DNA from: Pseudomonadota bacterium
Lineage (GTDB): Bacteria > Pseudomonadota > Alphaproteobacteria > Acetobacterales > Acetobacteraceae
Direction: 5' to 3'
Length of the DNA stretch: 64,000 nt
NCBI GenBank assembly: GCA_021809435.1
Contig: JAKBAD010000005.1
Coordinates: 1 to 64,000, forward strand
Positions 27,168-60,243 of this stretch are shown here, in pieces (the first letter of the stretch is position 1; each line of letters starts with the position of its first letter). The translations under genes and the position numbers were made by a program. The notes beneath the pieces were generated by a model. The model was not told where the DNA came from. It did no database searches and worked only from the letters and a program-made list of their open reading frames with translations.

Positions 27168-27259
<92 letters not shown>

Positions 27260-27406
27260 ACCCCCTGCACCCCCGTGCACACCCCCGCAAAAAACCCTTT
27301 GTTTTTCTAGGCTTAGGCCTGTTCGGCGCGCTTGACTTTGCGCCCCCGTGCACCCACATCGCGCTCATGTTTGTGGGATGGGTTGTGGTATGAAAATGAG
27401 GCCCGC

Positions 27407-28639
27407 ATGGCGCGGATAATGGAAAAGCTCTCTCCCGTGGCGGTCCGCAATGCCAACAAGCCCGGCATGTACGGCGATGGCGGCGGGCTGTGGTTACATG
27501 TCGGCCCGAACGCCATTGGGCCGGACGGCAAGCCGACCAAGACCGGAAAATCCTGGGTGTTCCGGTATATGATAGACGGTCGGGCACGGGAAATGGGTCT
27601 CGGCCCCCTGCACACAATCAGCCTCGCGCAGGCACGCGACCTAGCCCGCAGCGCCCGTCAGCAGGTGCTGCAAGGCGACGACCCGCTTGAGGCCAAACAT
27701 ACCGATCGTCAGGCCCGCAGGCGGGAAGCGGCGAAGGCGATCACCTTCCGGGCGTGTGCCGAGCGATATATTGCCGCCAACCGTCCGGCCTGGGCCAACG
27801 AAAAGCATGCGTCCCAATGGGAGAACACTCTCTCTACTTATGTCTTCCCGGTTATAGGGGCGCTTTCGGTGGGCGAGATCGACACGGGCCATATCACCAA
27901 GATCCTGCAGCCGATCTGGACGGTGAAGTCGGAAACGGCATCGCGGGTTCGAGGGCGCATCGAGGTCGTGCTCAACTATGCGGCCGTTCATGGCTGGCGG
28001 ACGGGTGAAAACCCTGCGCGGTGGCGGGGACATCTCGAGAACGTGCTGCCCAAGAAATCCAAAGTCGCCAAAGTCGAGCATCACGCCGCCCTACCCTGGC
28101 AGGAGATTGGCCCGTTCATGACGCGCCTGAACATGGAAAAAGGCGCGTCGGCGCTGGCGCTCCGCTTTGCCATCCTCACCGCCGCCCGGACCGGCGAGGT
28201 AATCGGCGCCAAGTGGGAGGAGATTGATCGCGTCAATAAAATCTGGACCGTGCCGGGTGAGCGCATGAAAGCGGGGCGCGAACATCGCGTGCCGCTGACA
28301 GAGGCCGCGCTGGCGGTCTTGGACGTCGCCGAGGGGCTGCGGCTGGACGAGGCCGATTACGTCTTTCCCGGCGCCAAGAAGGACGCTCCCCTTTCCAATA
28401 TGGCCATGCTCACATTGCTACGCCGGATGAAGCGCGACGATCTAACCGCGCACGGCTTCCGTTCCACCTTCCGCGACTGGGCCGCTGAGACGGGCCAACC
28501 CGCCGACATCGCCGAAGCGGCGTTGGCGCATGTCGTCGGCAACAAGACGGTGGCCGCGTATCAGCGTGGCGATCTGCTGAACCGCCGCCGCAAGCTTATG
28601 CAGGACTGGGCAACGTTTTGCGCTGGTAAAAAAGAGTGA
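27407..28639 (+). CDS. int: P4-type tyrosine integrase
   Basis: The 410-residue site-specific recombinase would catalyse integration into and excision from tRNA-Ser. The N-terminal DUF4102-type arm-binding domain includes MYGDGGGLWLHVGPNA and KSWVFRYMIDGRAREMGLG. A SAM-like core-binding domain follows (about 100-190). The C-terminal catalytic domain holds the first Arg in TAARTGEVIGAKWEEI, HGFRSTFRDWAAETG with His and second Arg, and the nucleophile Tyr in VAAYQRGDLLNRR. ATG 27407 is chosen because homology starts soon after; a longer frame reaches 27332. It lies just inside attL and is transcribed away from the tRNA. It appears intact. Confidence 0.94.
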   Translation: MARIMEKLSPVAVRNANKPGMYGDGGGLWLHVGPNAIGPDGKPTKTGKSWVFRYMIDGRAREMGLGPLHTISLAQARDLARSARQQVLQGDDPLEAKHTDRQARRREAAKAITFRACAERYIAANRPAWANEKHASQWENTLSTYVFPVIGALSVGEIDTGHITKILQPIWTVKSETASRVRGRIEVVLNYAAVHGWRTGENPARWRGHLENVLPKKSKVAKVEHHAALPWQEIGPFMTRLNMEKGASALALRFAILTAARTGEVIGAKWEEIDRVNKIWTVPGERMKAGREHRVPLTEAALAVLDVAEGLRLDEADYVFPGAKKDAPLSNMAMLTLLRRMKRDDLTAHGFRSTFRDWAAETGQPADIAEAALAHVVGNKTVAAYQRGDLLNRRRKLMQDWATFCAGKKE

Positions 28640-28727: not shown

Positions 28728-28880
28728 ATGTCAGGCAGCGTTATACGAACGCCAGTTTTTGGCGACGCTTCCTTTAAATTTGTTTCTGCTTTGATCAACT
28801 TTGGTGAGATGTCGGTTGGCGCCGACACCTTCCGAGAACTGCAGGCATGTCGGGAGGCTCATCATGAAGTCTCCTTCTAA
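28728..28880 (+). CDS. Small hypothetical protein upstream of the AlpA-like gene
   Basis: A 50-codon frame starts at ATG 28728 with a strong GGAGGG site about 6 bp upstream. Its end overlaps the first codons of the AlpA-like gene by 17 bp in another frame. The translation (MSGSVIRTPVFGDASFKF...) resembles nothing I know. The good ribosome binding site and the overlap suggest that it is translated and coupled to the downstream gene. Confidence 0.45.
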   Translation: MSGSVIRTPVFGDASFKFVSALINFGEMSVGADTFRELQACREAHHEVSF

Positions 28881-29109
28881 TGCCGCCGTCGTGGATACGC
28901 TGCCGATATTCGGTACTATCGAAAAATGGTGTTCCCTCACAGGAATGGGGCGGCGCGCGACCTACGATGCACTCGGCCATGGCCACCTGATAGCGGTAAA
29001 AGTGGGCACACGCACGCTCATTAACATCGCCAAGGGACTGGTATGGCTTGAGGCTCAACCTACGGCACAAATCCGCCCGCAAAGGCGCCGAGAACCAGCA
29101 AACAGTTAA
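28864..29109 (+). CDS. AlpA-like helix-turn-helix regulator/excisionase
   Basis: The 81-residue product resembles short AlpA/excisionase-type proteins encoded next to P4-family integrases: a MerR-like winged HTH core, with IEKWCSLTGMGRRATYDAL as the recognition helix-turn-helix and GHLIAVKVGTRTLINI as the wing. Such proteins activate the integrase promoter or direct excision. Position (225 bp after int, same strand) and size support this over a chromosomal regulator. ATG 28864 is preceded by GGGAGG. Which promoter it acts on is not visible. Confidence 0.72.
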   Translation: MKSPSNAAVVDTLPIFGTIEKWCSLTGMGRRATYDALGHGHLIAVKVGTRTLINIAKGLVWLEAQPTAQIRPQRRREPANS

Positions 29110-29359: not shown

Positions 29360-29641
29360 ATGGATAATAAGAGATTTAAGGCAGGTTCTGCCGCAGATCC
29401 CAGGAAATTCATCACAGGGTCTGAGGACCAAATGAATTATCCGGCGATCGGGCACAAGATCGACATTATCGTCGTGGCTAAACCTATACTTGACTGTTCC
29501 GCCGGGAATTTTGCCGCAACGGCTTTTAATATCTGCATCGTTTGTAAGGATTTTGGGGATGACGTTTCCGAAGCCGAGAAACGCAGCGGGGTATTATTTC
29601 CACAGGTGACTGTGGAGGCGTTATGCCAATCACAACAATAG
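29360..29641 (+). CDS. Hypothetical protein preceding the replication gene
   Basis: The 93-residue product starts at ATG 29360 with an excellent AAGGAGGG site. No family is recognised. The middle is a hydrophobic beta-rich stretch (IGHKIDIIVVAKPIL, FNICIVCKDFGDDV). Its stop overlaps the first 19 bases of the replication gene, so the two are translationally coupled, and a role in replication or copy control is possible by position only. Confidence 0.6.
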   Translation: MDNKRFKAGSAADPRKFITGSEDQMNYPAIGHKIDIIVVAKPILDCSAGNFAATAFNICIVCKDFGDDVSEAEKRSGVLFPQVTVEALCQSQQ

Positions 29642-30936
29642 AGGCCCAAAAAGTGGGCCTGGCCTTATCGCAGGCCAAAGTGTTGTCGTTCGTATCCCAT
29701 CTCCTGCCTAAATCCAAAGTGACGCAGAACGGTCTGCCTCAGGTGGTGATTACCCGTGAGGTGATTATGGAGAAATGCGAATTGACGCGCGAACAGGTGC
29801 GCCGTGCGGTAGAACGGCTCGTGGAATACGAACTGCTGACCATCGAGGTTCATCTCTGGGGGCGGACGCGCAAAAGCTTTATGCGCCCAACCCTGGATAC
29901 ACTGGTCGGATGGGAGCGCCCTGCTCCGAAACCCCTTAATGAGCGCCGCGTTCGTGGTGCCAAAAAGGACCTGCAAAGTGGCCTGCAAAGTGGCCTCAAG
30001 GCCACTTACTGTAATGGGCCTCAAGGCCACTTACTGAAAACGGCCTCGAGGCCACTTTCATATAATGAAGAAGAACTGGACGTTACGAACTCAGGGGGAG
30101 AAGAAACCGCTCGTGCAAGCACTCACGGGCAAGCCCTCCCAGAAAATGTCTTTCAGTTTGTTCTGAAGGAAAATTTGAAAGCAAACACCATGGCCAGAAC
30201 CACACCCAAAACCATGCACTCGTTTACTCAGGCCTTTCAGGCCCAAGCAGATGAGAAGAAGGCACAAGCCTTCTCCCAGGACAATCTCAACGGCGTGCAA
30301 TCACTTGCAAGTTTGAAGGCGCTTTGGCTCAAAGCGATGTCGGAGATCAATGGCTTTGCAGCCCCCCTGACCAAGAAGGATGAAGGCTGCTTGAAGCGTC
30401 TGCTCACCGCCTGCCCCCCGAACCGCTCAGCCGCCGTGATCCTTTGCGCGGTCGAGAATTGGTTGGACTTCGTGAGCTACGCCACCTCGGAGCATGGGGC
30501 GTTCAAACTCTCGAGGCATCCCGACCTTGGCACGCTCACCCGGCTGGTGACCCCCGCCGTGATGTTCTGGAAAAGACAACAGGAGCAGGAAGCCCACCAG
30601 AGCCTCGTACAGGCCCCTAAGGCAGCTTCCGCCCCTACCACCCCCGAGACGGCTCCCGGCCCCTCCCTGAGCGAAATTTTCGGGGTTCCCGTGCCTCCTG
30701 GACACACCTGCACCATCTTGGATGATGAGATTTACATGTGCAAAGATGGGTACCGGGTGACCCCCGATGTCCAGCGTTATGGCAGCTACGCCATTCTCGA
30801 CGGTTTGGAGCACGCTCAGAACTGGTGGAATGAGAGACACCCCGGTGAGGCGTACCCCGACCCTGTGCCCTATTTCCGGGCCGGTCTGGCGGACACGCTG
30901 GTGGCCCTGCTCTCGAAGAAGGAGGCCCTGGGTTGA
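29623..30936 (+). CDS. Putative replication initiator with internal origin
   Basis: The 437-residue protein has an N-terminal winged-helix domain (about residues 15-95; VITREVIMEKCELTREQVRRAVERL and EYELLTIEVHLWG). A variable linker spanning about residues 115-150 is encoded by iteron-like DNA repeats, and the remainder is an unrecognised C-terminal region with a Pro/Ala-rich segment (about 325-350). This layout, a DNA-binding N terminus followed by an origin inside the gene, matches replication initiators such as lambda O in principle; I see no direct sequence match to O. The repeats have a 25-bp period, so they are read in three different frames, which argues for a DNA-level role. An alternative is a wHTH regulator binding its own gene. 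Confidence 0.65.
   Translation: MPITTIEAQKVGLALSQAKVLSFVSHLLPKSKVTQNGLPQVVITREVIMEKCELTREQVRRAVERLVEYELLTIEVHLWGRTRKSFMRPTLDTLVGWERPAPKPLNERRVRGAKKDLQSGLQSGLKATYCNGPQGHLLKTASRPLSYNEEELDVTNSGGEETARASTHGQALPENVFQFVLKENLKANTMARTTPKTMHSFTQAFQAQADEKKAQAFSQDNLNGVQSLASLKALWLKAMSEINGFAAPLTKKDEGCLKRLLTACPPNRSAAVILCAVENWLDFVSYATSEHGAFKLSRHPDLGTLTRLVTPAVMFWKRQQEQEAHQSLVQAPKAASAPTTPETAPGPSLSEIFGVPVPPGHTCTILDDEIYMCKDGYRVTPDVQRYGSYAILDGLEHAQNWWNERHPGEAYPDPVPYFRAGLADTLVALLSKKEALG
29970..30066 (+). repeat. Iteron-like repeats inside the putative rep gene
   Basis: Two tandem copies of CCTGCAAAGTGG (29970-29993) run into three tandem 25-bp units (29992-30016, 30017-30041, 30042-30066). The first two units share GGCCTCAAGGCCACTTACTG; the third has GGCCTCGAGGCCACTT. 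The first contains the 18-bp palindrome AGTGGCCTCAAGGCCACT. An A+T-richer stretch follows (TCATATAATGAAGAAGAA). This resembles a replication origin with initiator-binding iterons. Confidence 0.8.
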
Positions 30937-31158: not shown

Positions 31159-32208
31159 TTGCCTGACCTGACATCTCGCTTCCTTGGCTGCCTGCTTGGC
31201 GGTGCGATCGGTGACGCTCTCGGTGCGCCGGTGGAATTTGACACTTGGCCCGAAATCCAGGCTGAGTACGGCCCAGACGGTATTCAGGACTACGCACCGG
31301 GAGATTACGGCCTGGGCGCGGTCACGGACGACACGCAGATGACCATGTTCACCGCCGAAGGGCTCATCCGCGCCTGGGTCCGCATGAGCGCCAAGGGCAT
31401 TTGCGGCGTCAACGGCGTCATCCATCATGCCTATCTGCGTTGGCTGACGACCCAAAGCGAACGCGCCCCAACGAAGATTGGCACCGACGGCTGGTTGTTC
31501 AAATGCCGCGAGCTGCACGCCCGGCGGGCTCCGGGCAACACCTGCCTGGGAGCTTTACGGGCGGCCACCAACGGATTTTCGTCAGAGAAGGCGCGTAACA
31601 ACAGCAAGGGCTGCGGCGGTATCATGCGGGTGGCGCCAGTGGGCCTGTTTGTTCTGGAGGATCAGATTTTTGGGCGTGCCTGCGATGCGGCGGCGCTCAC
31701 GCATGGTCACCCTTCGGGCTATATTTCGGCGGGTTATTTTGCGGTGGTCATCGGTGCGCTGTGCCGTGGAGAGTCCCTGCATGACGCCATGGCGCGGGCT
31801 GATCGGCGGATTGCCGATATTTCGGAGGCAGACGAGGTACGCCAAGCTGTCGATGCTGCGCGGGCGCTGGCTGCTCACGGTGTGCCGTCGCCTCGAGAGC
31901 TGGAAAGTCTGGGCGGCGCCTGGGTTGGCGAAGAAGCTTTGGCGATATCGCTTTGCTGCGCGCTAGTAGCCCACGATTTCGCCCAGGGCATACGCCTGGC
32001 CGTGAATCATGGTGGAGACAGCGACAGTACAGGCGCCATCACGGGCAATCTGCTGGGGACAATGTGGGGCGTTGAGGCCATCCCTGCGCATTTCCTCGAC
32101 CGGCTCGAACTTCGCCGGGAGATCGAGCGGCTGGCCCTGGATATGGTGAGCATCACCGAAGGGCGGACGAATTACGAAGATATCTTTGATGATTATCCGG
32201 GCTGGTGA
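31159..32208 (+). CDS. ADP-ribosylglycohydrolase (DraG family)
   Basis: The 349-residue protein is a DraG/ARH-fold hydrolase, enzymes that remove ADP-ribose from modified proteins or nucleic acids using two Mg2+ ions. FLGCLLGGAIGDALGAPVEF is the N-terminal signature, TDDTQMTMFTAEGL (from residue 56) carries the metal-binding Thr-Asp-Asp, and NHGGDSDSTGAITGNLLG near the C terminus carries the second metal cluster. All are intact. It starts at TTG 31159 with AGGAGA upstream. No ADP-ribosyltransferase gene is nearby, so it could reverse phage- or toxin-made ADP-ribosylation from elsewhere; this is inference from its place among defence genes. Confidence 0.88.
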   Translation: MPDLTSRFLGCLLGGAIGDALGAPVEFDTWPEIQAEYGPDGIQDYAPGDYGLGAVTDDTQMTMFTAEGLIRAWVRMSAKGICGVNGVIHHAYLRWLTTQSERAPTKIGTDGWLFKCRELHARRAPGNTCLGALRAATNGFSSEKARNNSKGCGGIMRVAPVGLFVLEDQIFGRACDAAALTHGHPSGYISAGYFAVVIGALCRGESLHDAMARADRRIADISEADEVRQAVDAARALAAHGVPSPRELESLGGAWVGEEALAISLCCALVAHDFAQGIRLAVNHGGDSDSTGAITGNLLGTMWGVEAIPAHFLDRLELRREIERLALDMVSITEGRTNYEDIFDDYPGW

Positions 32209-32267: not shown

Positions 32268-33497
32268 CTAATTTTGCCAAAGGGCCAGCCTTCCGAGGTG
32301 GGCGTCGATTGCCCGGGACACAGTGGGAGCAACGGGCAAATCTGCCTTGGCGATGCGCCATTCTTCGTGGAACCGGGAAATAATTTCCGTTGCCGCGTCC
32401 AGCATCAGCTTCTCCGGCAGCCGGGCCTTGGCGGTCAGATAGCGCAGCTCGTCGAATGACAGCTCGCTCATCCGCTTGGTGCGGGCATATTTGAGGGCGG
32501 CGAATTCGTCCTGGATATAGGGGATGGTGGAGACAAAATCATAGGCCGGAGCGAGGGCTGCATTCCGGCGGTCGGGGTAAATCAAAGACCAGTTCTTCAG
32601 ATGCATGTCGGCATTACCGATCAATGTATTGAAGACCAGGCGCCTGATGAACTCGGCCGCTGCGTCATGCCCAGCCTCAATACCGATTACCGTAGCGATA
32701 TTGCGCGCGCTGGCACTCTCATATTTTTCTTCGGGCCAAACGCCGAATATCTGCGCGAAATCCTCGATATGAACAGGCCCAGCCTCGGTCCGGTCAAACC
32801 GCCGAACGGCCAGGGCCGGGCCTTGGAGGTGATCCAACCCTTTGGGCAATCCCTCGATGGCATCCAGCCCCACCAGCTGTACCTCAGGCACATCCATGCC
32901 AAGGCGGCGGGCCAAGGTCATCATGGCGAATTCATTTTCGGGCAGGCCGGGAAAGCGGTCAGAGGGAAGCTTGAGGATCCATGAGCCGCCAACCCCCTCG
33001 GCCGGAATGGTCAGGCCGCCATGCTTGCCGGTGTTTTTCAGCGCGGAAAATTTCAGCTGAACCCCCGCCAGAGAAAATCTCAGGATCGCGTCGGCGGGCC
33101 TATCCGTCTGCTCTGCCCTGGACTTACCCCCTCGCGGGGGCAGCGGCTCACCGTCAGCGGGGTGAATGGTGATGGCGCCCGGCAGGTCCTGTCCCAGAAC
33201 CCAGAGCAGGAAGAATTCCCGCCGCTCATTCACCCCGGCCTGTTTGGCGAGATAGGTGCGAAGCGGTCCTTCGGGCAGCAGATTGGCGAAAAACGGCGGT
33301 ACGCGGAGATTGGTGGGCGCGATATCAGTTATCAGCCCGCCGAGCCAGTCCTTGAATGACAGGCTGAGCGTCGGGCGATCCGGGTTGTCGATATAGGGCT
33401 TGCTGAAGGTAAACAGGGTGCGGCTACCCTCGATGAGGGTCAGCGTGCCGATAGACTCACCATGCAGCCGCACGTCGAGGACGGAGATGTCAGCCAT
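32268..33497 (-). CDS. hipA: HipA-type serine/threonine kinase toxin
   Basis: The 409-residue protein is a HipA kinase. E. coli HipA phosphorylates glutamyl-tRNA synthetase and causes dormancy, but targets vary across the family. The N-terminal couple_hipA domain (1-100) includes LSLSFKDWLGG and PPFFANLLPEGPLRTYL. The C-terminal kinase domain has the catalytic loop GNADMHLKNWSLIY, with the Asp and Asn expected, and the metal-binding APAYDFVST. It ends in a helical bundle. ATG 33497 overlaps the end of hipB by 8 bp, the usual antitoxin-toxin coupling. The protein appears complete and active-site-competent. Confidence 0.92.
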   Translation of the reverse strand: MADISVLDVRLHGESIGTLTLIEGSRTLFTFSKPYIDNPDRPTLSLSFKDWLGGLITDIAPTNLRVPPFFANLLPEGPLRTYLAKQAGVNERREFFLLWVLGQDLPGAITIHPADGEPLPPRGGKSRAEQTDRPADAILRFSLAGVQLKFSALKNTGKHGGLTIPAEGVGGSWILKLPSDRFPGLPENEFAMMTLARRLGMDVPEVQLVGLDAIEGLPKGLDHLQGPALAVRRFDRTEAGPVHIEDFAQIFGVWPEEKYESASARNIATVIGIEAGHDAAAEFIRRLVFNTLIGNADMHLKNWSLIYPDRRNAALAPAYDFVSTIPYIQDEFAALKYARTKRMSELSFDELRYLTAKARLPEKLMLDAATEIISRFHEEWRIAKADLPVAPTVSRAIDAHLGRLALWQN

Positions 33498-33792
33498 TCT
33501 CGTCCTCATCCAACAAATAGGCCGGGCGGTTGGCTTGCGGGCCGGCAGAGGGCTTGGCTGTGAGGGCTTCAACAACAGGCAGCAGCTTGCGGGGGATCAG
33601 CACGACTTCGAGGTCCAACGCCCGGGCAAGCTCGATCAGGCTGGACACGCGCATATCGGTACTGCCGCCCTCGATCTTGGATATATGGCTCTGGGGAATA
33701 CCAGTCTGCGCGCTCAACTGCCGCTGGCTGATGCCGGCAGCCTCCCGGGCGGTGCGGAGAGTTTGCAGTATCTCTTCGGTTGCATAGGCCAT
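33490..33792 (-). CDS. hipB: HipB-type antitoxin (Xre HTH)
   Basis: The 100-residue protein has an Xre-type helix-turn-helix: LRTAREAAGISQRQLSAQTG and IPQSHISKIEGGSTDMRVSS, then LIELARALDLEVVLIPRK. It would bind HipA and repress the operon through an operator before the gene. The start ATG 33792 follows from homology; upstream codons do not match. A C-terminal Pro-rich tail (about 75-100) is like the flexible antitoxin tail of HipB proteins. The upstream region (33793-33860) contains TATATCAAAATA and ATAGCATATCA elements, but no clean operator dyad was assigned. Confidence 0.9.
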   Translation of the reverse strand: MAYATEEILQTLRTAREAAGISQRQLSAQTGIPQSHISKIEGGSTDMRVSSLIELARALDLEVVLIPRKLLPVVEALTAKPSAGPQANRPAYLLDEDENG

Positions 33793-34017
33793 GATATGCC
33801 TCTGTATATCAAAATACGGCGTAGATGCGCGATAGCATATCACGCGCCGCACGGCCAGCAGGATTTAAGCCCCTGAGTTTATCGCGGCTTATCCCACGAT
33901 AAAGACAACAAGCCATTGAAATCAATTATTTTATTTTGAGTTCACCGACCGAATTTTCCTTGCCTCCGGCGGCTGGCGAGTTACCGTCGCGATTCAACCT
34001 TCTCAAGGAGACTGATC

Positions 34018-34988: not shown

Positions 34989-36830
34989 ATGAGCCAATCC
35001 GCGTCGTCCCTCTCCTCTCTCATCTGGTCTGTGGCCGACCTGCTGCGGGGCGATTACAAGCCCTCCGAATACGGCAAGGTCATCCTGCCCTTCACGGTGC
35101 TGCGCCGCCTGGATTGCGTGCTCGCCCCGACAAAATCCGCCGTTTTGGCCGAAGTTGAGGCCAAGCAGAAGGCCGGGCTCAACCCCGAGCCCTTCCTGCT
35201 CAAAATCGCCAAGCTCAATTTCGTCAATATTTCGGCGCTCGACATGGCCAAGCTGGTCGGCGACCAGGACAACATCGCCACCAACCTCACCGCCTATATC
35301 CAAGGCTTCACCGCCCCGGTGCGCGATATCTTCGAGCGCTTCCGCTTCACCGAGCAGCTCGACCGCCTGCGCAAGGCGGGTCTCCTCTACCAGGTGACCG
35401 AGAAATTCGCCGGCTTCGACCTCTCCCCCGCCTTTGTCACCAACCACGACATGGGCCTCGCCTTCGAGGAGCTGATCCGCAAATTCGCCGAGGCCTCCAA
35501 CGAGACGGCTGGTGAGCATTTCACCCCCCGCGACGCCATCAAACTCATGGTGAACCTTCTGTTTGTTGAGGATGACGACATCCTCACCCCCGGCACGCCT
35601 GCCGTCCGCACCATCTACGACCCCACGGCCGGCACGGGTGGCATGCTCTCGGTCGCGGCGGAGCATCTGCTCGAGCATAACCCCGATGCCAAGCTCACCA
35701 TGTTCGGCCAGGAGCTGAACGACGAATCCTACGCCATTTGTAAGGCGGACATGCTCATCAAAGGCCAGGATATCCGCAACATTGCGCCCGGCAACACGCT
35801 CTCGGGCGATGAACATGCCGGGCGCAAGTTCGACTATATGCTCTCCAACCCGCCCTTTGGCGTGGAGTGGAAGAAGGTGGAGAAGGAAATCCGCCGCGAG
35901 CATGAGGAAAAGGGCTTTGCCGGGCGCTTTGGTCCTGGCCTGCCGCGCATTTCTGATGGCTCGATGCTTTTTCTCCTCCACCTCGTCTCCAAAATGCGCC
36001 CGGCGCAGGAGGGTGGCAGCCGGTTTGGCATTGTGCTCAACGGCTCGCCCTTGTTCACAGGCGGCGCCGGCTCGGGCGAGTCTGAGATCCGGCGCTATAT
36101 GCTGGAGAGCGATCTGGTCGAGGCCATCATCGCCCTGCCGACCGACATGTTCTTTAACACCGGCATCGCCACCTATGTGTGGATCGTCTCCAACCGCAAG
36201 CCGGCCGCGCGCAAGGGGTTTGTGCAGCTCATCGATGGCTCCGGGTTTTGGCGCAAGATGCGCAAGAGCCTGGGCTCCAAGCGCCGCGAGATGGGCGATG
36301 ACGACATCGCCACCATCACCCGCCTGTTCGCCGATTTTGCCGAGGCGCGGCTTGCCACCATCACCACGGCCGATGGCGCTTCGCGTACCGAGATCATCCG
36401 TGCCGATGAGGCCGAGCCCGCCGCGCCCGAGGGCGGCAAGGTAAAACTCGCCCCGCTCTCGCGCATTTTTGCGAATGAGGCGTTTGGCTACCGCACCATC
36501 ACGGTGGAGCGGCCTTTGCTGGATGATAAAGGCAAGCCCGTGCTGGGCGTGAAGGGCAAGCAAAAGGGCCTGCCCCAGCCCAACCCTGAGCTGCGTGATA
36601 CCGAAAATGTGCCGCTGGCCGAGGACGTGGAGAGCTACTTCGCCCGCGAGGTGCTGCCCCACGCGGCTGATGCCTGGATTGACGAGGCAAAGACCAAGAT
36701 TGGCTACGAAATCCCCTTCAACCGGCATTTTTATGTGTTTGCGCCGCCGCGTAGCCTGGAGGAGATCGACGCGGATTTGGCCCAGGTGGTCGGGCGCATC
36801 CAGACCATGCTGGGCGAGGTGATGGCATGA
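34989..36830 (+). CDS. hsdM: Type I restriction-modification methyltransferase subunit HsdM
   Basis: The 613-residue N6-adenine methyltransferase forms M2S1 with HsdS to modify DNA and is needed for R2M2S1 restriction. The N-terminal helical domain (1-150) is followed by [18 protein letters not shown], the SAM loop [19 protein letters not shown] and the catalytic motif [12 protein letters not shown], then [20 protein letters not shown]. All expected motifs are intact. The start ATG 34989 sits about 60 bp after a candidate promoter. The last codons overlap a small coupled frame (ATGA), followed by hsdS. Codon use and G+C content are near those of the chromosome. Confidence 0.96.
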
Positions 36831-37036
36831 GCGGCAAAATTCTGCCCCACAGCCGCACGGCAACTTGTAAGTATCACTTACGAGTTCAGCCCAGGGGTGG
36901 GCTGACCGCAGCCGCAACTGTCAAAGATTATTTGACAGTTCACCCGGGTGGGGTGTGCCATCTGGCCAAGCTCGGCGCGGAGCTTTCTGCTGTTATGGGG
37001 CGGGTTTCGGCCATGCCCGGGGAGCTGGCGGCATGA
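36827..37036 (+). CDS. Small ORF coupled between hsdM and hsdS, hairpin-rich
   Basis: A 69-codon frame starts within the hsdM stop (ATGA) and its own stop overlaps the hsdS start (ATGA), so ribosomes could pass through all three. The translation has two related 18-residue units, [14 protein letters not shown] and [13 protein letters not shown], encoded by DNA made of back-to-back inverted repeats. The xVKDxLTV pattern faintly recalls RhuM-type proteins often found inside type I loci, so it might be a decayed piece of one, but that is a weak comparison. It may instead be a structured linker controlling the HsdM:HsdS ratio. Confidence 0.5.
36862..36955 (+). repeat. Two-unit tandem double-hairpin repeat between hsdM and hsdS
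   Basis: Four inverted repeats lie in a row. IR1 is AACTTGTAAGT/ACTTACGAGTT (36862-36886, one mismatch). IR2 is CAGCCCA/TGGGCTG (36887-36904). IR3 is AACTGTCAAA/TTTGACAGTT (36916-36940). IR4 is CACCC/GGGTG (36941-36955, containing palindrome CACCCGGGTG). IR1 and IR3 begin exactly 54 bp (18 codons) apart, and each A+T-rich hairpin is followed at once by a G+C-rich one. Confidence 0.85.
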
Positions 37037-38379
37037 GCACGCGGCGGTATCCGGCTTATAAAGACAGCGGGGTGGAGTGGCTGGGCGAGGTGCCTGTTGG
37101 TTGGGGCGTCGAGCCTCTTTGGGCAAATTCATCATGCAATGACGAGGTTTTACCCGAGACCACTCCGCCGAATTACGAGTTCGAGTATGTGGAGATTTCT
37201 GACGTTAGTCAGGTTGAAGGTGTTGGGACTGGTGTCACGGTAAGCTTCGCAGATGCGCCCTCCCGTGCCAGACGAATTGCGCGTGGTTCGGATGTCCTTG
37301 TTTCGACGGTGAGGACTTATCTCCGGGCAATCGCGGCGGTGCCTTCAGAGAGAGATAGTGTTGTAGCATCAACTGGCTTTGCCGTTTTCCGCTCAAGAAG
37401 CCTTTCCCCAACCTTTTTGGTCTACCTGTTTCACGCCGAATATCTTGTCGCGGAGATCATCTCGCGTTCTACAGGGGTAAGCTATCCGGCGATTAATGCC
37501 AGCACTATTCAAAAGCTGAAGATTCCGGTTCCGTCTATAGCCGAACAGAACGCCATTGCCACCTTCCTTGACCGCGAGACCGCGAAGATCGACGCACTGA
37601 TTGCTGAGCAGGAGCGCCTGATTGCCCTCCTGCAGGAAAAGCGGCAGGCAGTGATCTCCCAGGCCGTCACCAAGGGCCTCGATCCAACCGTCCCGATGAA
37701 GGATTCAGGCGTGGAGTGGCTGGGGATGGTGCCGGAGCATTGGGACACTTATGGATTTCTTCGCGGTTTCAACGTTGTGTACCGTTATCCTACCTATTTT
37801 GATATTTCATATGAACAAAGTGGAATACCGGAGATTCGTGGAGAGGCAATCGGACTCGATGGTCAAATAGTAGAGCTAGACGACATGCGGTTCATTTCTC
37901 CGAAAACAAACAGCAAGTTTCCTATGACGCAATTGGCGTTGAATGACTTGGTGATGTCCGTAAGAGGCACTTTAGGAAAAATCGGTTTGGTCGACGAAAA
38001 ATTTGTCGGTGCTAATATTACGGCAAATTTGTTGCGGCTTTCCCCAGATCCGTCCCTTGTAAGGGCGGAATTTCTTGTTTGGCTTATGCGGGCGGAGTTG
38101 TTCACAATTCAATTAGATCTTGTTTCCTCGCAGACTACTATCAAGACCGTTACCGTACCCCAGCTTGGCCAGATAAAAATTCCAGTCCCCTCGCTTCAAG
38201 AGCAAAAAGACATAACGACATTTCTTAAACATGAATGCCAAAAAATGGAGGGGCTAAAGGAAGAGGCTAATAAGGCCATCACCCTCCTCCGAGAACGCCG
38301 CGCCGCGCTCATCTCCGCCGCCGTTACGGGCAAAATAGACGTCCGCGCGGCGGGCGCAGCCGCCCAGGAGGCCGCATGA
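37033..38379 (+). CDS. hsdS: Type I restriction-modification specificity subunit HsdS
   Basis: The 448-residue subunit has two target recognition domains (about 15-190 and 235-410), each ending in a conserved helix: EQNAIATFLDRETAKIDALI then LLQEKRQAVISQAVTKGLD, and EQKDITTFLKHECQKMEGL then LLRERRAALISAAVTGKIDV. The repeated KDSGVEWLGEVPVGW and KDSGVEWLGMVPEHW mark the start of each half. Both recognition domains are richer in A+T than the conserved helices, as expected for exchangeable domains. ATG 37033 overlaps the preceding small frame. The recognised sequence cannot be predicted by eye. The stop overlaps the hsdR start. Confidence 0.94.
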   Translation: MSTRRYPAYKDSGVEWLGEVPVGWGVEPLWANSSCNDEVLPETTPPNYEFEYVEISDVSQVEGVGTGVTVSFADAPSRARRIARGSDVLVSTVRTYLRAIAAVPSERDSVVASTGFAVFRSRSLSPTFLVYLFHAEYLVAEIISRSTGVSYPAINASTIQKLKIPVPSIAEQNAIATFLDRETAKIDALIAEQERLIALLQEKRQAVISQAVTKGLDPTVPMKDSGVEWLGMVPEHWDTYGFLRGFNVVYRYPTYFDISYEQSGIPEIRGEAIGLDGQIVELDDMRFISPKTNSKFPMTQLALNDLVMSVRGTLGKIGLVDEKFVGANITANLLRLSPDPSLVRAEFLVWLMRAELFTIQLDLVSSQTTIKTVTVPQLGQIKIPVPSLQEQKDITTFLKHECQKMEGLKEEANKAITLLRERRAALISAAVTGKIDVRAAGAAAQEAA

Positions 38380-41300
38380 GCCTGCACAAGGAACAAAAAT
38401 TCGAGGATGGCATTTGCGACCATCTGGCCGCCCAGGGCTGGCTGTATGAAGAGGGCGCGGCCAGCCGGTATGACCGGGCGAAGGCGCTGTTCACCGAGGA
38501 TTTTTGCGCCTGGGTGCAGGCCAGCCAGCCCGATGCCTGGGCCGCGCTGGGGGCGATGCATGGGGACAAGGCGGGGGCGATCATCGCCGAGCGGCTGCGC
38601 AGCGCGCTAGATAAGCAAGGCACGCTGCTGTTGCTGCGCCAAGGGCTGGATATTGTCGGGCTAAAACAGGCGCTCAGCCTGTGCCAGTTCCGCCCAGCAC
38701 TGGGCATGAACGAGGCGCTGCAAGCCCGCTACGCCGCCAACTGCTTACGCGTGGTGCGGCAAGTGCGGTTTTCCACGCAGAATGAGCAGAGCATCGACCT
38801 GGTGCTGTTTCTCAACGGCATTCCCGTCGCCACGGCCGAGCTGAAGTCAGACTACACGCAATCTGTGCAGGACGCGGTGGACCAGTACCGGTTTGACCGT
38901 AACCCCAAGCCAGCCGGGCGCAATGTGCCAGAGCCGCTGCTCGCCTTCCCCGGCGGGGCGCTGGTGCATTTTGCCGTGAGCAATAGCGAGGTGCAGATGA
39001 CCACGCGTCTGGCCGGGGCTGAGACGGTGTTTCTGCCCTTCAACAAGGGCAATGCGGGCGGGGCGGGTAATCCGCCCAACCCCAATGGCGCGCCGACGGC
39101 TTACCTATGGGAAGAGGTGTGGCAGCGCGAGAGCTGGCTGGAAATTCTGGGCCGCTACATTGTGCCCGTGCGCAATACCAAGAACCAGCTCGGCGGCTGG
39201 ATTTTCCCGCGCTTTCATCAGCTCGATGCCACGCGCCGGCTGGTGAAGGCGGTGCTGCAGGATGGCCCGGGCGGGCGCTATCTGATCGAGCATTCGGCAG
39301 GCTCAGGCAAAACCAACTCCATCGCCTGGACGGCGCATTTTCTGGCTGATCTGCACAATGCGGCCAATGAAAAACTGTTTGATACGGTGATTGTGGTCTC
39401 GGACCGCACGGTGCTGGACAAGCAGCTGCGCGCCGCCGTGGAGGCGTTTGAGCGCACAAAAGGCGTGGTGGCGACGATTACCGGCGAGGGGGCGAGCAAG
39501 AGCCAGGAGCTGGGCAATGCGCTGAAGGCGGGCAAGAAGATCGTGGTCTGCACGATCCAGACTTTCCCGTTCGCCATAAAGGAGGCGCAGGAGCTGGCGG
39601 CGAAGGCCAAGCGGCGCTTTGTGGTCATCGCCGATGAGGCGCATTCCTCGCAGACCGGGCGCACGGCCTCGGACCTCAAACAAGTGCTGACCCCGCAGGA
39701 AGCGGCGGATTTGGAGGATGGCGGGGAATATAGCATCGAGGATTTGCTGGCCGCGCGCATGGCGGCCCGCGCCCAGGCGGCGGATGGCATTACCTATGTC
39801 GCCTTCACCGCCACGCCCAAGGCGAAGACGCTGGAGATGTTCGGCACCCGCCCAAACCCGGACCTGCCCGCGGGGCCAGAGAATTTGCCAAGCGCGTTCC
39901 ACCTTTACTCGATGCGCCAGGCGATCGAGGAAGGGTTCATCCTGGATGTGCTGCGAAACTACACCTCGTACAAGATGGCCTTCCGGCTGACGCATAATGG
40001 CCGCGAGGTGAGCGAGGCGGAGGTTGAGGCTGATGCGGCACGCAAGGGTATTATGGGCTGGGTACGGCTGCATCCGGCCAATATCGCGGCGCGGGTGCAG
40101 ATTGTGGTCGAGCATTTCCGCCAGAATGTCGCCCATCTGCTGAACGGCCGGGCGAAAGCCATGGTGGTGACGGCGAGCCGCAAGGAAGCCGTGCGCTGGA
40201 AAGTGGCGATGGAGAGCTACATCAAGCAGCGCGGCTACCCGATTGGGCTGCTGGTCGCCTTCTCGGGCGAGGTGAACGACCCTGAGACCGGGCCGGAGGC
40301 GTTCAGCGAGACCAACATGAACCCCGGCCTGCGCGGGCGGGATTTGCGCGATGCCTTCGCCACTTCGGAATATTCCATCCTGCTGGTGGCCAATAAATTC
40401 CAGACGGGATTTGATCAGCCCTTGCTGTGCGGCATGTATGTGGACCGCAAGCTAGGCGGGCTGCAGGCGGTGCAGACGCTTTCCCGCCTTAACCGCACTT
40501 TGCCCGATGGCACGAAAGACACGACCTATGTGGTCGATTTTGTGAATGAGCCGGCGGAGATATTAAAGGCGTTCCAGCAATATTACACCACGGCCGAGCT
40601 GGCGGATGTGAGCGACCCAAACATCGTGCTGGATTTGCGCAACAAGCTCGATTCCGCCGGGATGTATGATTGGTTCGAGGTTGAGCGCGTGGCCGCCGTG
40701 ACCGTGAACCCCAAGGCAACGCAAGGGCAGTTGGACGCTGCCATCGGCCCGGTAAGCAACCGGCTGCTGACACGCTACAAGGCCGCCGCAAAGGCCGCGC
40801 GGGAGGCTATACCGGGTTCAGCAGACGCCCAGGACCGGAAAGATGAGGCCGATGCGCTCATCCTGTTCAAACGCGACCTGGGTAATTTCAACCGGGCCTA
40901 TGAGTTTCTCGGCCAGATGTTTGATTACGGGAACACGGATTACGAGAAGCTCTACGTGTTCGCCAAACTGCTGGTGCCGCTGCTGGATTATGGGCGGGAA
41001 CGGGAGGGCATCGACCTCTCAGCCCTACGCCTGACCCATCACAAGATGCGCGATCTCGGCCAGCAACGGCTGAACCTCGATGGTGAAGCTGGTGCGCCGC
41101 TGGCACCCATGACAGATGCTGGCTCGGGCCAGGTGCAAGACAAGCACAAAATCCGCCTGCGCGAGCTCATCGCGGCGCTGAATGATTTGTTCGAGGGAGA
41201 TATTACCGAGGGCGACGCCATCAGCTACGTGGATGGAGTTATCAAGGCGAAAATGCTGGAGTCTGAGGCGTTGCAAGCCCAGGCAAAGGCCAACACCAAG

Positions 41301-41495
41301 GAGCAATTCGCCAACTCCCCGAACCTGCATGACGAACTGCTCGGGGCGATCATGGAAGCCATGGCGGCGCACTCCGAAATGAGCAAGCAGGCGCTGAATT
41401 CCGACGATATTCGCACCCGGATGCTGGCAACCCTGATTGGACCTGGGCAGCTATGGGAGGCATTGAGAAATGGCCCGCAGACGCTTTCCCCATGA
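38376..41495 (+). CDS. hsdR: Type I restriction enzyme R subunit HsdR
   Basis: The 1039-residue subunit carries the nuclease and DNA translocase of the restriction complex. The N-terminal PD-(D/E)xK nuclease is seen as SIDLVLFLNGIPVATAELKS. The SF2 motor has Walker A EHSAGSGKTNSIAW, motif II VVIADEAHSSQTG, motif III TYVAFTATPKAKTLEMFG and a helicase C-terminal half with VANKFQTGFDQPLLCGMYVD and LQAVQTLSRLNR. A helical C-terminal domain binds HsdM. All parts are intact and the length is normal. The start overlaps hsdS (ATGA), completing an M-S-R operon. It ends 16 bp before boundary palindrome 4. Confidence 0.95.
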   Translation: MSLHKEQKFEDGICDHLAAQGWLYEEGAASRYDRAKALFTEDFCAWVQASQPDAWAALGAMHGDKAGAIIAERLRSALDKQGTLLLLRQGLDIVGLKQALSLCQFRPALGMNEALQARYAANCLRVVRQVRFSTQNEQSIDLVLFLNGIPVATAELKSDYTQSVQDAVDQYRFDRNPKPAGRNVPEPLLAFPGGALVHFAVSNSEVQMTTRLAGAETVFLPFNKGNAGGAGNPPNPNGAPTAYLWEEVWQRESWLEILGRYIVPVRNTKNQLGGWIFPRFHQLDATRRLVKAVLQDGPGGRYLIEHSAGSGKTNSIAWTAHFLADLHNAANEKLFDTVIVVSDRTVLDKQLRAAVEAFERTKGVVATITGEGASKSQELGNALKAGKKIVVCTIQTFPFAIKEAQELAAKAKRRFVVIADEAHSSQTGRTASDLKQVLTPQEAADLEDGGEYSIEDLLAARMAARAQAADGITYVAFTATPKAKTLEMFGTRPNPDLPAGPENLPSAFHLYSMRQAIEEGFILDVLRNYTSYKMAFRLTHNGREVSEAEVEADAARKGIMGWVRLHPANIAARVQIVVEHFRQNVAHLLNGRAKAMVVTASRKEAVRWKVAMESYIKQRGYPIGLLVAFSGEVNDPETGPEAFSETNMNPGLRGRDLRDAFATSEYSILLVANKFQTGFDQPLLCGMYVDRKLGGLQAVQTLSRLNRTLPDGTKDTTYVVDFVNEPAEILKAFQQYYTTAELADVSDPNIVLDLRNKLDSAGMYDWFEVERVAAVTVNPKATQGQLDAAIGPVSNRLLTRYKAAAKAAREAIPGSADAQDRKDEADALILFKRDLGNFNRAYEFLGQMFDYGNTDYEKLYVFAKLLVPLLDYGREREGIDLSALRLTHHKMRDLGQQRLNLDGEAGAPLAPMTDAGSGQVQDKHKIRLRELIAALNDLFEGDITEGDAISYVDGVIKAKMLESEALQAQAKANTKEQFANSPNLHDELLGAIMEAMAAHSEMSKQALNSDDIRTRMLATLIGPGQLWEALRNGPQTLSP

Positions 41496-41764: not shown

Positions 41765-41911
41765 TGGTTGACATTTCAACCGCACCGGGAAATAAATTAC
41801 TTATCAGAAATTAAGTATTTCGAATTGCAAAGGGCTGCTCTTGTGAGCACAACCAAGTCGCCTCTCTCCTCCTCCGGCTGGCCGGTGGCCGGGAATCTTC
41901 CGGGCAGATGC
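41765..41911 (+). pseudogene. Decayed 5' end of a second hsdM
   Basis: GGTTGACATTTCAACCGCACCGGGAAA-like sequence from 41766 (TTGACA at 41768-41773) repeats the hsdM upstream region at 34923 with few changes. Farther on, GTG 41843 opens a frame reading VSTTKSPLSSSGWPVAGNL, which aligns without gaps to the HsdM start [19 protein letters not shown] (about 10 of 19 positions identical counting the initiator). The likeness ends soon after, and druH begins at 41959. It is a relic of another type I locus or a partial duplication; its promoter may now serve druH. Confidence 0.65.
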
Positions 41912-41958
41912 AAACGGTACTATGCCAGCCTATTCATTTACGCGGCGCAGCGCGGATA

Positions 41959-44900
41959 ATGCTTTCTCCTCCTTTCCTTTCCGCTCGTATTGAGCAGCTT
42001 GAAAACAGCTTCGCTAAAGCAAAAGGAAACTACGCACAGTTAAAGCTGATAGCGAATGAGCTTGAACATCAAAACACACCGAATGCGAGGCGTTTGCATA
42101 TCAAGGTAGTGGCGGAAATGTTGCGTATAAAACGCGAGGCTACGGATTCCGCGTTGCCTGTGCGTCCTTCGCTCCCGTCCCTACTTCGCGCGCTACTTGA
42201 TCGGTTCAAGCTTGATGTACCTGACGGTCGGCCCCTGCATAGATACCGATTGGGTACAGAGGATTACGATCAACTGACGGTATTGTTGCGCCAGCGTGCT
42301 TCACGGCTCCAGAGCTGGAATGAGAGTGATGCGGCTTTGCTGGTGCTTTGGGCTTCGGCTTGGTTCCGCCGTGAATACGGCGGTGGTATCCGTAAATATC
42401 GTGAACTCGGTGCGGCCATCGGCGCAACGCTCGAGGAACGCGAGTGGCCCCATCTGATTGAGTATGGTCTGAAGTGGTGGAAGCGGCCGGTAGTCAAGCG
42501 TACCAGCGGGCGGCATTGGCTGCTGACGATCGCTGTGGAGGGTGGTTTCCCTGTCCGTGTGTTGCAGGCAGGTGCAGGATGGCTACCAAGGTATCTCAAA
42601 GGGGTAGTAGGTCGACTGCTTGGGATCTCTGACGATCCTTCGCCTGACGACGCTTTCGCTATGGCGGATGCCGCGAAGGAGGATCTGCGCGACACCTACC
42701 GCCAGGAGGCCTTCATTGCACTGGCGGCTGATTTGGCGCTGGCGATTGTGAAATTACGGCGCATCGCCGAGGCAGCCGCACCGAACCTCGTGCCATCGGC
42801 CGTCCTCGACCAGATCCGCCCTGGCTGGCGTGATGAGTTGCCGATCGCGGCTGATACGGATGCAGCGCGCGCGCTGGTGGATGGGATGCTTGCTGCCAAG
42901 AAGATTGCGCGCGGTCTGAGCGGCGGCATGGGCTGCGTACGTGTGTTGCGACGAGGTTTCAAAGAGTGGAGCGCGGGGCTGAGGCTGTCGCTTGTAGGCG
43001 AATTCAAGTCGAATGCCCTTGCGGGGGTGGCTGAGCGAGGGACGCGACTGGGCGTCCATCCTTACGGTGTTTTGGCGCGAGCTCTGGGTGAGGAGTTAGC
43101 CTTTCTCGATCCACCGGGCGAGGATGGCGATAGTTGGCGGGTGCGTCCCCTTACTCGCAGGACCGAATTAGATGATGTTCCGTTGGAAGCACGCATCGAG
43201 GTGCTAATCCAATCACCTAATGGTGCTGCGCGCACGATGCAATGGCCCGGAGGCGGTTCCGAACGTAGCGACGTCCTCACATTCGAGATCGATGCTGAAG
43301 ATACAAATGGACCAAAAACTTTGGTGCTTGCCGCGCAGGGATCGGCTAGTCTGCGTGCCGAACGAGTCGTTGTTGCCGCGCCGGCCGATTGGTCCGTTCG
43401 CTGGGAAGACGAAGCCGTTGAGGGGGCGCCGACGAGCATTGGCGCGACGAGAGACGGGCGCGGGTTGTGGCTCACCGATAAATCTCTGTTGGTGGAGAGC
43501 ACGGACGGCGACCAGCTCTATTGCATCCAAACAGGTGTCGACGAGGAACTGCGTGATCGAATAGGGCTCGACGGCCAGTCGCCGCGAGGCTTCGACAGCG
43601 CGGACGATGTCTTCCTGTTCGCCGGCCCGCCGACGGTCACTTGCTATCGCGGGCGGACTTCGACGAAACCGGCGGACAACGAACTGCTCTGGCGTCGGGC
43701 GCGAGGCGATTCGTGGCAAGAACTGGCGCGTTCCCGGCTCCCTGTCGGGGCAATCGACATCATGTGGCGCGACGTGCGAACGAGATTTGTTCGTGATCGC
43801 GTGCGTGCGGCCATTGTGCCGCAATCCGCGCGTGTCGTGCGCGAGCGTGATGGTGAAGGTTGGCGCTATAGCTTTCAGGGATTCGGCGAACTGGCGATCT
43901 CGCCGGAGCCTGCCACTGGATTAAATGTCGAGCAGCGCCCAGGCGACGTCTTCGCGCTCTCGTTCCGCAGCAATCCGGTACGCCGCGTCACCTTCGTGCT
44001 TCGGATACCGAACAGCACGTGCACGATCCGCATCACCCTGCCTTTCCCCTTGCGCGATGGAATTGCACATTGGAATGGCAAGATCGTGCCGCCGGGATCA
44101 GAGATAACGCCGGCGGAACTGGCCGAGCTTGTCGCCTTCGGTGAGGGCAAACTCACGCTGTGCTGCGAACTCAAGAACACCGAGAGAGGCTATCCCGCAC
44201 ACTATACGCTTGGTGAACGCGAACTGGGTTTACGACCGCTGTCGGATCGGGTTCGTAGCGACCTTGCTTCTGCCGGGATCGACGCCTGGGTCGCGCTCAG
44301 TATCGGTGATGGCGCTCCGCCTTGGCGCATCAAGCTGTTTGATCTCGAAGTTCGTTACGATAACGGCGCGGCGTCGGTCGTGAAACCTGGGTTAGAAGAG
44401 GAGCCGCTGATCCTGGCGGGACGATCGGTTGCGATGCCCTGCGAAGAACGCCGTTTGGCCGCCATCGATCTTGAAGATGCGTTGAACCGGCGCTCAATAC
44501 CGCTTCCCGAGAACATGACTGGCGCTTGGTGGGTGTATTTGCGTAGCGACCGCGCTGTGCGATCGAGGCCGTCGATTGTTCCTTGCGTCGGTGAGACAGT
44601 AGCCGTCGGCGATGGCTTGGCCGCAACGGTCGTGATCGCCGCTCCATCGGCTCGACAGGCCGCGATCGTTGAGCGCCTGAACGCGATTGCCGCTGACACA
44701 GATGGTGCAGCGGAAGATGTTGGATGGTTGAACAAGCTGATCGGTTCGTTGGACGGCTTGCCAGCATCCACATTTGACGTTCTGGCGAAGCTCTCCGACG
44801 CGCCGGTTGTTCTTGCGCGTCTGCTGCTGTCCGCCGGTGACGCTGCCCAAGGAGGCATTTGGCGGCTCGAAGCGGAGTTGCCCTTTCTATGGGCGGCACT

Positions 44901-45420
44901 GCCGCTGACGGCATGGAGCGCAGCCGCCAATGCGCTTGGACGTAGCGTAATGAGTCCACTCCTGGCAGCAGGCTGGGAGTTGGCTCGGGCGGCCCCGATG
45001 GGGAAGCAGGTCATCGATAGCGCCGCCACTCGCACCGGCAATCTCGATCCCGTGATTGGCGCCGCGCTCGCGGCGGCTGACCTCCTCCCAAAACCTTCGT
45101 TGATCCCCTCCATCCGCGATGCCGCCCAAGGCTATGTGCGCCGCACGTTCGATCGCGGTGACATGGCGATCGGGCTGCCAAAGCAGACGAGCGTGTTCCG
45201 CACGCCGGAACTCGATCCGCATCTTCCCGGCTGGTTCAAGACCACGTTCGATTTAATGCACCTGGAAGCGCTGGACGCTCCCATCGTCGCCGCTGTCGCA
45301 GCGAAAACGAACACTAAGTTAACGCGCGCGCAGCTTCGGCGCTGCAAGGAGGCGATGGTGGCCGATCCGATCTATTTCGCGGAGGGTATCACGGCGGCGT
45401 TGCTGGGCGAAGAGCAATAG
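41959..45420 (+). CDS. druH: DruH-like protein of a type III Druantia system
   Basis: The product is a very large protein (1153 residues from ATG 41959; 1170 from ATG 41908) with no motif I can assign. The N-terminal 70 residues are helical (LSARIEQLENSFAKAKGNYAQL). A region near 100-200 has aromatic-rich segments (WPHLIEYGLKWWKRPVV), and the middle is beta-rich. It is identified as DruH because it directly precedes a 2015-residue DruE-type helicase, the exact two-gene make-up and size of Druantia type III, which blocks phage by an unknown mechanism. The start is uncertain, as neither ATG has a strong ribosome binding site. Its promoter may derive from the hsdM relic upstream. Confidence 0.72.
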   Translation: MLSPPFLSARIEQLENSFAKAKGNYAQLKLIANELEHQNTPNARRLHIKVVAEMLRIKREATDSALPVRPSLPSLLRALLDRFKLDVPDGRPLHRYRLGTEDYDQLTVLLRQRASRLQSWNESDAALLVLWASAWFRREYGGGIRKYRELGAAIGATLEEREWPHLIEYGLKWWKRPVVKRTSGRHWLLTIAVEGGFPVRVLQAGAGWLPRYLKGVVGRLLGISDDPSPDDAFAMADAAKEDLRDTYRQEAFIALAADLALAIVKLRRIAEAAAPNLVPSAVLDQIRPGWRDELPIAADTDAARALVDGMLAAKKIARGLSGGMGCVRVLRRGFKEWSAGLRLSLVGEFKSNALAGVAERGTRLGVHPYGVLARALGEELAFLDPPGEDGDSWRVRPLTRRTELDDVPLEARIEVLIQSPNGAARTMQWPGGGSERSDVLTFEIDAEDTNGPKTLVLAAQGSASLRAERVVVAAPADWSVRWEDEAVEGAPTSIGATRDGRGLWLTDKSLLVESTDGDQLYCIQTGVDEELRDRIGLDGQSPRGFDSADDVFLFAGPPTVTCYRGRTSTKPADNELLWRRARGDSWQELARSRLPVGAIDIMWRDVRTRFVRDRVRAAIVPQSARVVRERDGEGWRYSFQGFGELAISPEPATGLNVEQRPGDVFALSFRSNPVRRVTFVLRIPNSTCTIRITLPFPLRDGIAHWNGKIVPPGSEITPAELAELVAFGEGKLTLCCELKNTERGYPAHYTLGERELGLRPLSDRVRSDLASAGIDAWVALSIGDGAPPWRIKLFDLEVRYDNGAASVVKPGLEEEPLILAGRSVAMPCEERRLAAIDLEDALNRRSIPLPENMTGAWWVYLRSDRAVRSRPSIVPCVGETVAVGDGLAATVVIAAPSARQAAIVERLNAIAADTDGAAEDVGWLNKLIGSLDGLPASTFDVLAKLSDAPVVLARLLLSAGDAAQGGIWRLEAELPFLWAALPLTAWSAAANALGRSVMSPLLAAGWELARAAPMGKQVIDSAATRTGNLDPVIGAALAAADLLPKPSLIPSIRDAAQGYVRRTFDRGDMAIGLPKQTSVFRTPELDPHLPGWFKTTFDLMHLEALDAPIVAAVAAKTNTKLTRAQLRRCKEAMVADPIYFAEGITAALLGEEQ

Positions 45421-45431
45421 GGGGAACAGGC

Positions 45432-51479: not shown

Positions 51480-51596
51480 ACGGTTAGTGTCTAATCACGA
51501 CACCCATCTCCTGATTGGCGGTGCTGCCCGTGGCGGAGCCCTGGGCTGGACGCTGCCTGTCAGTGACCCTTCTACCTTAAAGAATGATTTCCGAGC

Positions 51597-57004: not shown

Positions 57005-57007
57005 ATA

Positions 57008-59709: not shown

Positions 59710-60243
59710 GTGTAAATTACCTTTGTTTTACAGAAGCCTAATAGTCAGCCACTGCACCCTAAATCAAGGATAGATGCAATAATAATTGAGGGCAACTGAG
59801 CCAATGCCCGGCTGGCGCAACAGGCTGACGGGAGTGGATTCGGCCGGGCAGACCACAAGGCTAGTGGTCAACCCGCCAGCAGCATTTGCCGAGGCACTTG
59901 AGTAATACGAGCATCCGTAGCGCGAATACCCGCGCAAAGTGCAGCCCCCCTCGATCTCCATGACCGATATGCGGCATCTACCCGATGGCCACCGCCTGAT
60001 GCACGCAACGCTAGGCTTTCCACAGGCGAGTTGTGTTACATTATCTAGGTTGAATCCATGAATTCAACCCTGCTACGCAAACTACGCCCCTATCCAGGGG
60101 TTCCCAGAGATCGGTGAAAAGCGAATTCATACTTTTACGTGCAATTAATTACAAATCGCGGCTCACAGGGCTGTTGGTGCCGGCATCGACAGCCGCCCGG
60201 CGAGGCGGTAGGCAGAGCCGTAGCGGCGACAGAGGAGATGGAC
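59710..60243. other. Intergenic region upstream of zorA, with boundary palindrome copy 5
   Basis: This 534-bp divergent region must hold the zorA promoter on the minus strand. A palindrome copy, TGCAATTAATTACA, lies at 60140-60153 (one change from perfect). GTGGATTCGGCC-type G+C-rich segments alternate with A+T-rich ones. A 65-codon frame on the minus strand (59764-59961) has no ribosome binding site and no homology, so it is not called. Confidence 0.5.
60140..60153. repeat. Boundary palindrome copy 5
   Basis: TGCAATTAATTACA has one change from the perfect 14-bp palindrome. It lies between the Zorya module and the small gene next to attR. Confidence 0.6.

Follow-up and report, generated by a model that had tools for sequence, protein, structure and literature searches.

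A putative replication initiator gene with a candidate origin inside its own coding sequence on a tRNA-Ser-associated defence island

The iterons of ori-lambda are inverted repeats that lie in gene O after the part encoding the N-terminal domain and are read in more than one frame, with the least stable tract located downstream of them (lambda record and sequence analysis; PMC5043065). In the lambda record four iterons occupy positions 349-433 of gene O and fall in frames 0, 2, 2 and 1; thus, the reading of one repeat in several frames is already known from lambda. The RepC initiator of repABC plasmids is also encoded by a gene that contains its origin; repC is reported to have no iterons, and in an R. 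etli plasmid with the origin in repC, silent mutations in the A+T-rich part of this gene abolished replication (PMC3155836). Phage DLP5, which carries a relative of the gene described below, replicates as a phagemid in its prophage state (PMC5834331, in passages that do not name the gene responsible). Among integrated elements, SGI1 and the V. cholerae PLE have replication functions of their own and are reported to replicate after excision.

The locus analyzed here lies in a window of 64 kb, the term being used for the whole stretch of DNA under study. At 29623-30936 on the plus strand it contains a gene of 437 aa with an ATG start. As judged from sequence comparison, we estimate a probability of about 0.8 that an integrative island has its replication initiator encoded by this gene, with the origin located in the coding sequence. 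The candidate origin is a repeat array at 29970-30066, 350-440 bp inside the gene. It starts with two tandem 12-bp direct repeats with AAGTGGCC half-sites (29970-29993, plus strand), identified by sequence self-comparison as tandem copies of CCTGCAAAGTGG at 29970-29981 and 29982-29993 (an exact 15-nt match with spacing 12). Three 25-bp units follow on the plus strand at 29992-30016, 30017-30041 and 30042-30066, with spacings of 25 and 25 bp and identities to the first unit of 100, 88 and 68%. Their first bases fall on codon positions 0, 1 and 2, and translation of the repeated DNA accordingly yields GLKATYCNG, GPQGHLLKT and TASRPLSYN. A previous sequence-only reading of this DNA had described these repeats and their three frames, and both its coordinates and its sequence proved correct.

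A feature not present in that reading is that the 25-bp units are near-palindromic, with 20-bp dyads at 29988-30007 (9/10 pairs), 30013-30032 (7/10) and 30038-30057 (8/10). None of 100 permutations contained three dyads as regular as these. A search of the host genome for the 20-bp dyad with at most two mismatches returned these three places only; elsewhere the pattern was found in one viral contig and as single sites in two genomes of the genus. The AAGTGGCC motif has five copies in 29976-30057 (two in one orientation and three in the other) and one further copy in the window. The window total of six is unremarkable by itself, being reached in 4 of 100 shuffles, and it is the clustering that is striking: synonymous recoding of the gene (n=2000) produced at most two copies, as compared to the five observed. 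Moreover, the best 40-bp self-match of the gene (36/40 at lag 25) was reached by none of 1000 synonymous permutations. Repetition arising by chance from the coding sequence is ruled out by these synonymous controls, that is, recodings and codon permutations. Matches to DnaA boxes were scattered only.

The units are adjoining head-to-tail copies whose identity declines along the array, as might result if a short functionless stretch had been duplicated neutrally in tandem. We regard this as very unlikely, since the copies agree in the 16-bp core and have diverged in the 9-bp spacer (15/16 and 2/9 invariant columns, respectively; Fisher p 5e-4, with the core border chosen post hoc), since each 25-bp copy shifts the reading frame, and since four homologous phage genes, considered below, carry repeats of unrelated sequence with similar spacing in the same place.

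The array occupies positions 348-444 of its gene, as compared to 349-433 for the lambda iterons, and the palindromic dyads of its units argue for an origin of the lambda type. The iteron ends for the comparison of dyads and frames were placed by eye. The two origins differ in iteron sequence and in composition, the array studied here combining three dyads with two direct half-sites. They also differ in the A+T tract, which here is weaker and lies 75 bp away. In particular, duplex stability within the gene is lowest in the 40 bp at 30141-30180 (plus strand), which lie 75 bp past the third unit and form a weak candidate opening site: given the encoded residues, 83 of 1000 synonymous permutations are equally unstable. 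The A+T-richer stretch described downstream of the repeats in the sequence-only reading is a mild and unremarkable one.

The array is flanked by the coding regions of a winged-helix-like N-terminus and of a conserved C-terminal part. The former covers about residues 1-90 (29623-29892, plus strand), and its assignment comes from a low-confidence model and weak profile matches. The element order of the model is H17-27 E39-41 H45-51 H56-68 E73-78 E81-85, the mean pLDDT of the structure models being 38.8 and 48.7, and most of the weak matches are to replication initiators (RP-C, Phage_rep_O and O-like PHROGs). We therefore call this domain winged-helix with caution: the element order and the initiator profiles agree with the winged-helix domain proposed earlier, but the low confidence of the model qualifies it, and the suggested comparison of a predicted structure with initiator folds yielded the winged-helix-like order but no PDB fold match at E <= 0.001. 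Sequence search of PDB gave a single match at E 0.3 for the profile and none for the single protein. The C-terminal part, about residues 219-344 (30277-30654, plus strand), is common to the phage relatives.

The matches of the protein to O-like PHROGs have E-values of 0.0037 (phrog_391) and 0.0098 (phrog_678), as compared to 2.7e-39 and 1.7e-35 for lambda O itself, and its direct comparison with lambda O is not significant (hhalign E 0.12; 0.2 for an unrelated control). No helicase gene or P-like helicase-loader gene was recognized beside the initiator gene, in which the locus again differs from lambda; the adjacent gene encodes an ADP-ribosylglycohydrolase, not a P-type loader. As the similarity to O is below significance and an adjoining loader is lacking, we describe the protein as one that probably works like lambda O, and not as a proven member of its family. 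Membership in the RepC/repABC group was rejected: the N-terminal RP-C match has E 0.0097 and 16.2 bits, below the cut-off of 24.4, and the genes upstream of the initiator gene are the integrase gene, an excisionase-like gene and an unassigned 93-aa ORF, with no repA or repB, unlike the organization of repABC plasmids.

Relatives of the protein were traced by protein similarity alone, none of them being picked for repeats. Close-match protein searches of genome contigs and of viral contigs (with the whole protein, the N-terminal part and a C-terminal part) gave little or no result, as did tblastn of plasmids and phages. The search of 61 near genomes returned the own genome only, and two marginal matches in 385 genomes of the class were judged spurious. 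The order-level sample of 395 genomes yielded, besides the own genome, G780 (E 8.7e-9), G643 (E 4e-7), which aligns with the window protein in the N- and C-terminal parts, and G567, which was left out because of stops inside the match. Searching these 395 genomes with profile A1 contributed one further match, G725 (E 4.6e-4), dropped due to an internal stop. The G780 protein as a query identified gp51 of Rhodobacter phage RcZahn (E 4e-6), and RcZahn as a query in turn retrieved seven records including itself: Summit, DLP5 (twice, NC_042082 being excluded as a second record of this phage), DLP3, RHph_Y1_11 and RHph_TM16. No match came from the viral set with the G780 or the RcZahn protein as query, from plasmids with G780 or from phages with the G643 protein.

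These remote phage relatives belong to phages of about 100 kb; those of RcZahn, Summit, DLP5 and DLP3 are annotated as HTH, 'putative membrane' or hypothetical proteins. In all six phages read, the relative is followed by helicase and primase genes, the helicase being annotated as 'DnaB-like' in five of them and as 'helicase' in DLP3. Downstream of the G643 gene, the second gene is DnaB-like (phrog_19, 8e-32) and is followed by a primase gene (phrog_47, 1e-31); the two scanned neighbours of the G780 gene had no PHROG match. The PHROG scan of the phage relatives covered Summit, RcZahn, RHph_Y1_11 and RHph_TM16, with DLP5 and DLP3 outside it. The Summit relative matched a replication-initiation PHROG (phrog_428, 9e-14), and those of RcZahn and the two Rhizobium phages matched DnaD-like and O-like PHROGs (7.5e-7 to 1.6e-4). 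By this PHROG match the Summit gene L064:3471-4391, annotated as 'putative membrane protein', is a probable replication initiator.

Repeats resembling the window array in layout were found in several of these genes. RcZahn gp51 contains three 18-nt repeats 23 bp apart in frames 1, 0 and 2, the outer two being identical and the middle one having 78% identity, and the Delepquintavirus genes (Summit, DLP5 and DLP3, close relatives counted as one lineage) contain two clear and two degenerate units with spacings of 23, 23 and 25. In these four genes the 23-bp repeats change frame and sit where the array of the window gene does, and the N- and C-terminal parts show remote homology; they differ in that the window protein has an additional C-terminal stretch and in that their carriers are phages, lytic or temperate, that encode a DnaB-like helicase and a primase themselves. 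In the G780 gene, two long repeats stand in frame at a distance of 54 bp. The observed self-match was reached in none of 1000 synonymous permutations for RcZahn, Summit and DLP5, as for the window gene, in 3 for DLP3 and in 4 for G780; the corresponding numbers are 57 for G643, 412 for RHph_Y1_11, 537 for RHph_TM16 and 40 for lambda O. No repeat array is present in two of the eight relatives (RHph_Y1_11 and RHph_TM16), and none is significant in G643. Ranking of off-frame self-matches in 255 ORF pieces from the window and 20 loci placed the window gene first (36/40), followed by RcZahn (32), Summit (30), DLP5 (29) and DLP3 (27), the next score being 26.

The synonymous controls and the homologous phage genes of the same layout together bear out the earlier suggestion that selection acts here on DNA rather than on protein, and the comparison supports conservation of the repeats as DNA, not as protein. 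The same phage genes, situated near DnaB-like helicase and primase genes, and the lambda control lend comparative support to the other earlier proposal, a lambda-O-like initiator with an in-gene origin. In all ten genes compared the least stable 40 bp are in the linker. The linkers of RHph_Y1_11 and RHph_TM16 (L065/L066, about 359-404) contain a very A+T-rich tract, with none of 1000 permutations being as low; it has no detectable repeat array and is reminiscent of the repC origin. With respect to the literature, no paper among the matches listed dealt, by its title or the opening of its abstract, with iterons inside a gene of these phages or islands. The DLP3 paper (PMC7326821) uses neither 'iteron' nor 'origin of replication' in its main text, and 'origin' is absent from that of the DLP5 paper (PMC5834331).

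The dyad regularity is significant in the window gene only, being reached in 18 to 96 of 100 permutations for the relatives. This bears on a function at the RNA level, with the repeats forming mRNA hairpins (attenuation, stability) or representing inserted palindromic repeats of the REP/RPE type, for which the near-perfect 20-bp inverted repeat of the first unit would be suited. Still, it is the direct repetition and not the dyad regularity that is significant in the relatives, and the element is not dispersed, being present, at up to two mismatches, only here in the genome; we consider such a function the least probable of the explanations weighed.

A second sample consisted of 338 ORF pieces around related integrases and att sites, its loci being partly shared with the first one. 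The highest score in it, 29, belongs to L093:2699-3880; it is closely followed by 28, 27 and 27, and hence this rank is not decisive alone. The DLP3 score of 27 equals the chance maxima of this set. L093:2699-3880 is a replication initiator gene according to PHROG (phrog_270, 5e-23; O-like phrog_391, 6e-15) and lies, in a Burkholderiales element, downstream of an integrase gene whose product is 45% identical to that of the window. Its five in-gene units, spaced by 27, 23, 22 and 23, use two frames, and its self-match was reached by 1 of 1000 permutations. No homology between its protein and the window protein was detectable; therefore, the layout recurs in different initiators.

The start of the window gene contains an inverted repeat, AGGCCCAAAAAGTGGGCCT, at 29642-29660, which loosely resembles the iteron core and might be an operator; the same site was also scored as terminator-like on the minus strand. 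Since dyads are typical of operators as well, the in-gene repeats could likewise bind the protein and yet serve as an operator or in copy-number control (autoregulation, handcuffing), the origin being elsewhere in the island, and this loosely similar site at the gene start fits such a role. We consider it improbable, albeit the least improbable of the alternatives, given that the array lies deep inside the gene at the position of the lambda origin iterons, that its layout recurs in relatives, and that the genome has no second array of the motif.

The gene is carried by an integrative genomic island, as indicated by an integrase gene next to a tRNA gene and by flanking direct repeats, which are the likely island borders. 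The integration site is tRNA-Ser(CGA) (27168-27257, plus strand). The left att candidate is formed by 14 bp of the tRNA 3' end (27244-27257, plus strand), and the right one is an identical 14-bp stretch immediately before recQ (60766-60779, plus strand), so that the likely tRNA-Ser island spans about 33.5 kb. The 14-bp match is weak alone and becomes firmer due to its position and to a 21-bp copy of the right-hand stretch in the closest relative, G020, between an integrase gene and recQ. The left-hand DNA matched 11 of the 12 fetched stretches of the genus, the same tRNA-Ser being present in 10 of the 12, and 18 of the 38 genus genomes encode a related integrase (E <= 1e-30). No exact empty site for the island was found, and the junction pattern of an excised circle was seen in none of the 38 genomes, assemblies rarely being expected to contain such a junction.

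The tyrosine integrase gene (27332-28639, plus strand; likely start ATG at 27407) is followed by the excisionase-like gene (28864-29109, plus strand), which has weak matches and no Pfam match. Past the initiator gene are those of the ADP-ribosylglycohydrolase (31159-32208, plus strand) and a HipBA-like pair (32268-33852, minus strand). Three anti-phage systems stand consecutively at 34989-59709: type I restriction-modification (M, S and R; 34989-41495, plus strand), Druantia type III (DruH3, DruE3; 41908-51479, plus strand) and Zorya type I (ZorA1, ZorB1, ZorC1, ZorD1; 51597-59709, minus strand). The G+C content of the Zorya part (51001-60000), about 44-54%, is clearly below that of the rest of the island, which suggests separate acquisition. 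In the G021 island, two different genes come after a similar excisionase-like gene; by eye, we take them to resemble a primase-polymerase and a helicase. In G018, short repeats of the GAGCAGTC type spaced by about 23 bp (L028:5961-6105), noticed by eye and as the second-best self-match of the 338-piece set, occur right after the excisionase-like gene at the contig end, which truncates the following gene.

The preferred reading, an initiator with the origin in its own gene, would work as follows. The island would excise, whereupon the initiator would act, its N-terminal winged-helix domain presumably binding the three palindromic 25-bp units as dimers with the assistance of the direct half-sites upstream. 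The array would occupy DNA that codes for a loosely constrained linker, and the protein-DNA complex would open the DNA downstream of the units. The C-terminal part may help to recruit the DnaB helicase, probably that of the host: since no helicase was recognized beside the window gene, host DnaB would serve. The excised island would then replicate autonomously, which makes it a possible self-copying element after it has left the chromosome. In having its own replication functions as an integrated element it would resemble SGI1 and PLE in general description; it differs from them in that its scanned cargo is anti-phage defence, and the same carrier sets the locus apart from lambda. More tentatively, and with less than even odds, excision would turn the defence island (type I restriction-modification, Druantia III, Zorya I, HipBA) into a circle that multiplies from the in-gene origin and raises the copy number or spread of its immunity genes; its initiator would then be one of a broader set of divergent initiators, from phages and islands alike, that have iterons overprinted on their own linker in different frames.

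The in-gene origin is classical in lambda, and its layout is encountered here in initiators that lack significant similarity to lambda O, carried by a defence island and by large phages whose annotations label the product as an HTH, membrane or hypothetical protein. If this is true, a simple rule emerges: repeats that are off-frame, recur every 22-27 bp and occupy the linker behind a winged-helix domain would locate initiators and origins missed by profile libraries, and the independent replication of defence islands would become testable.
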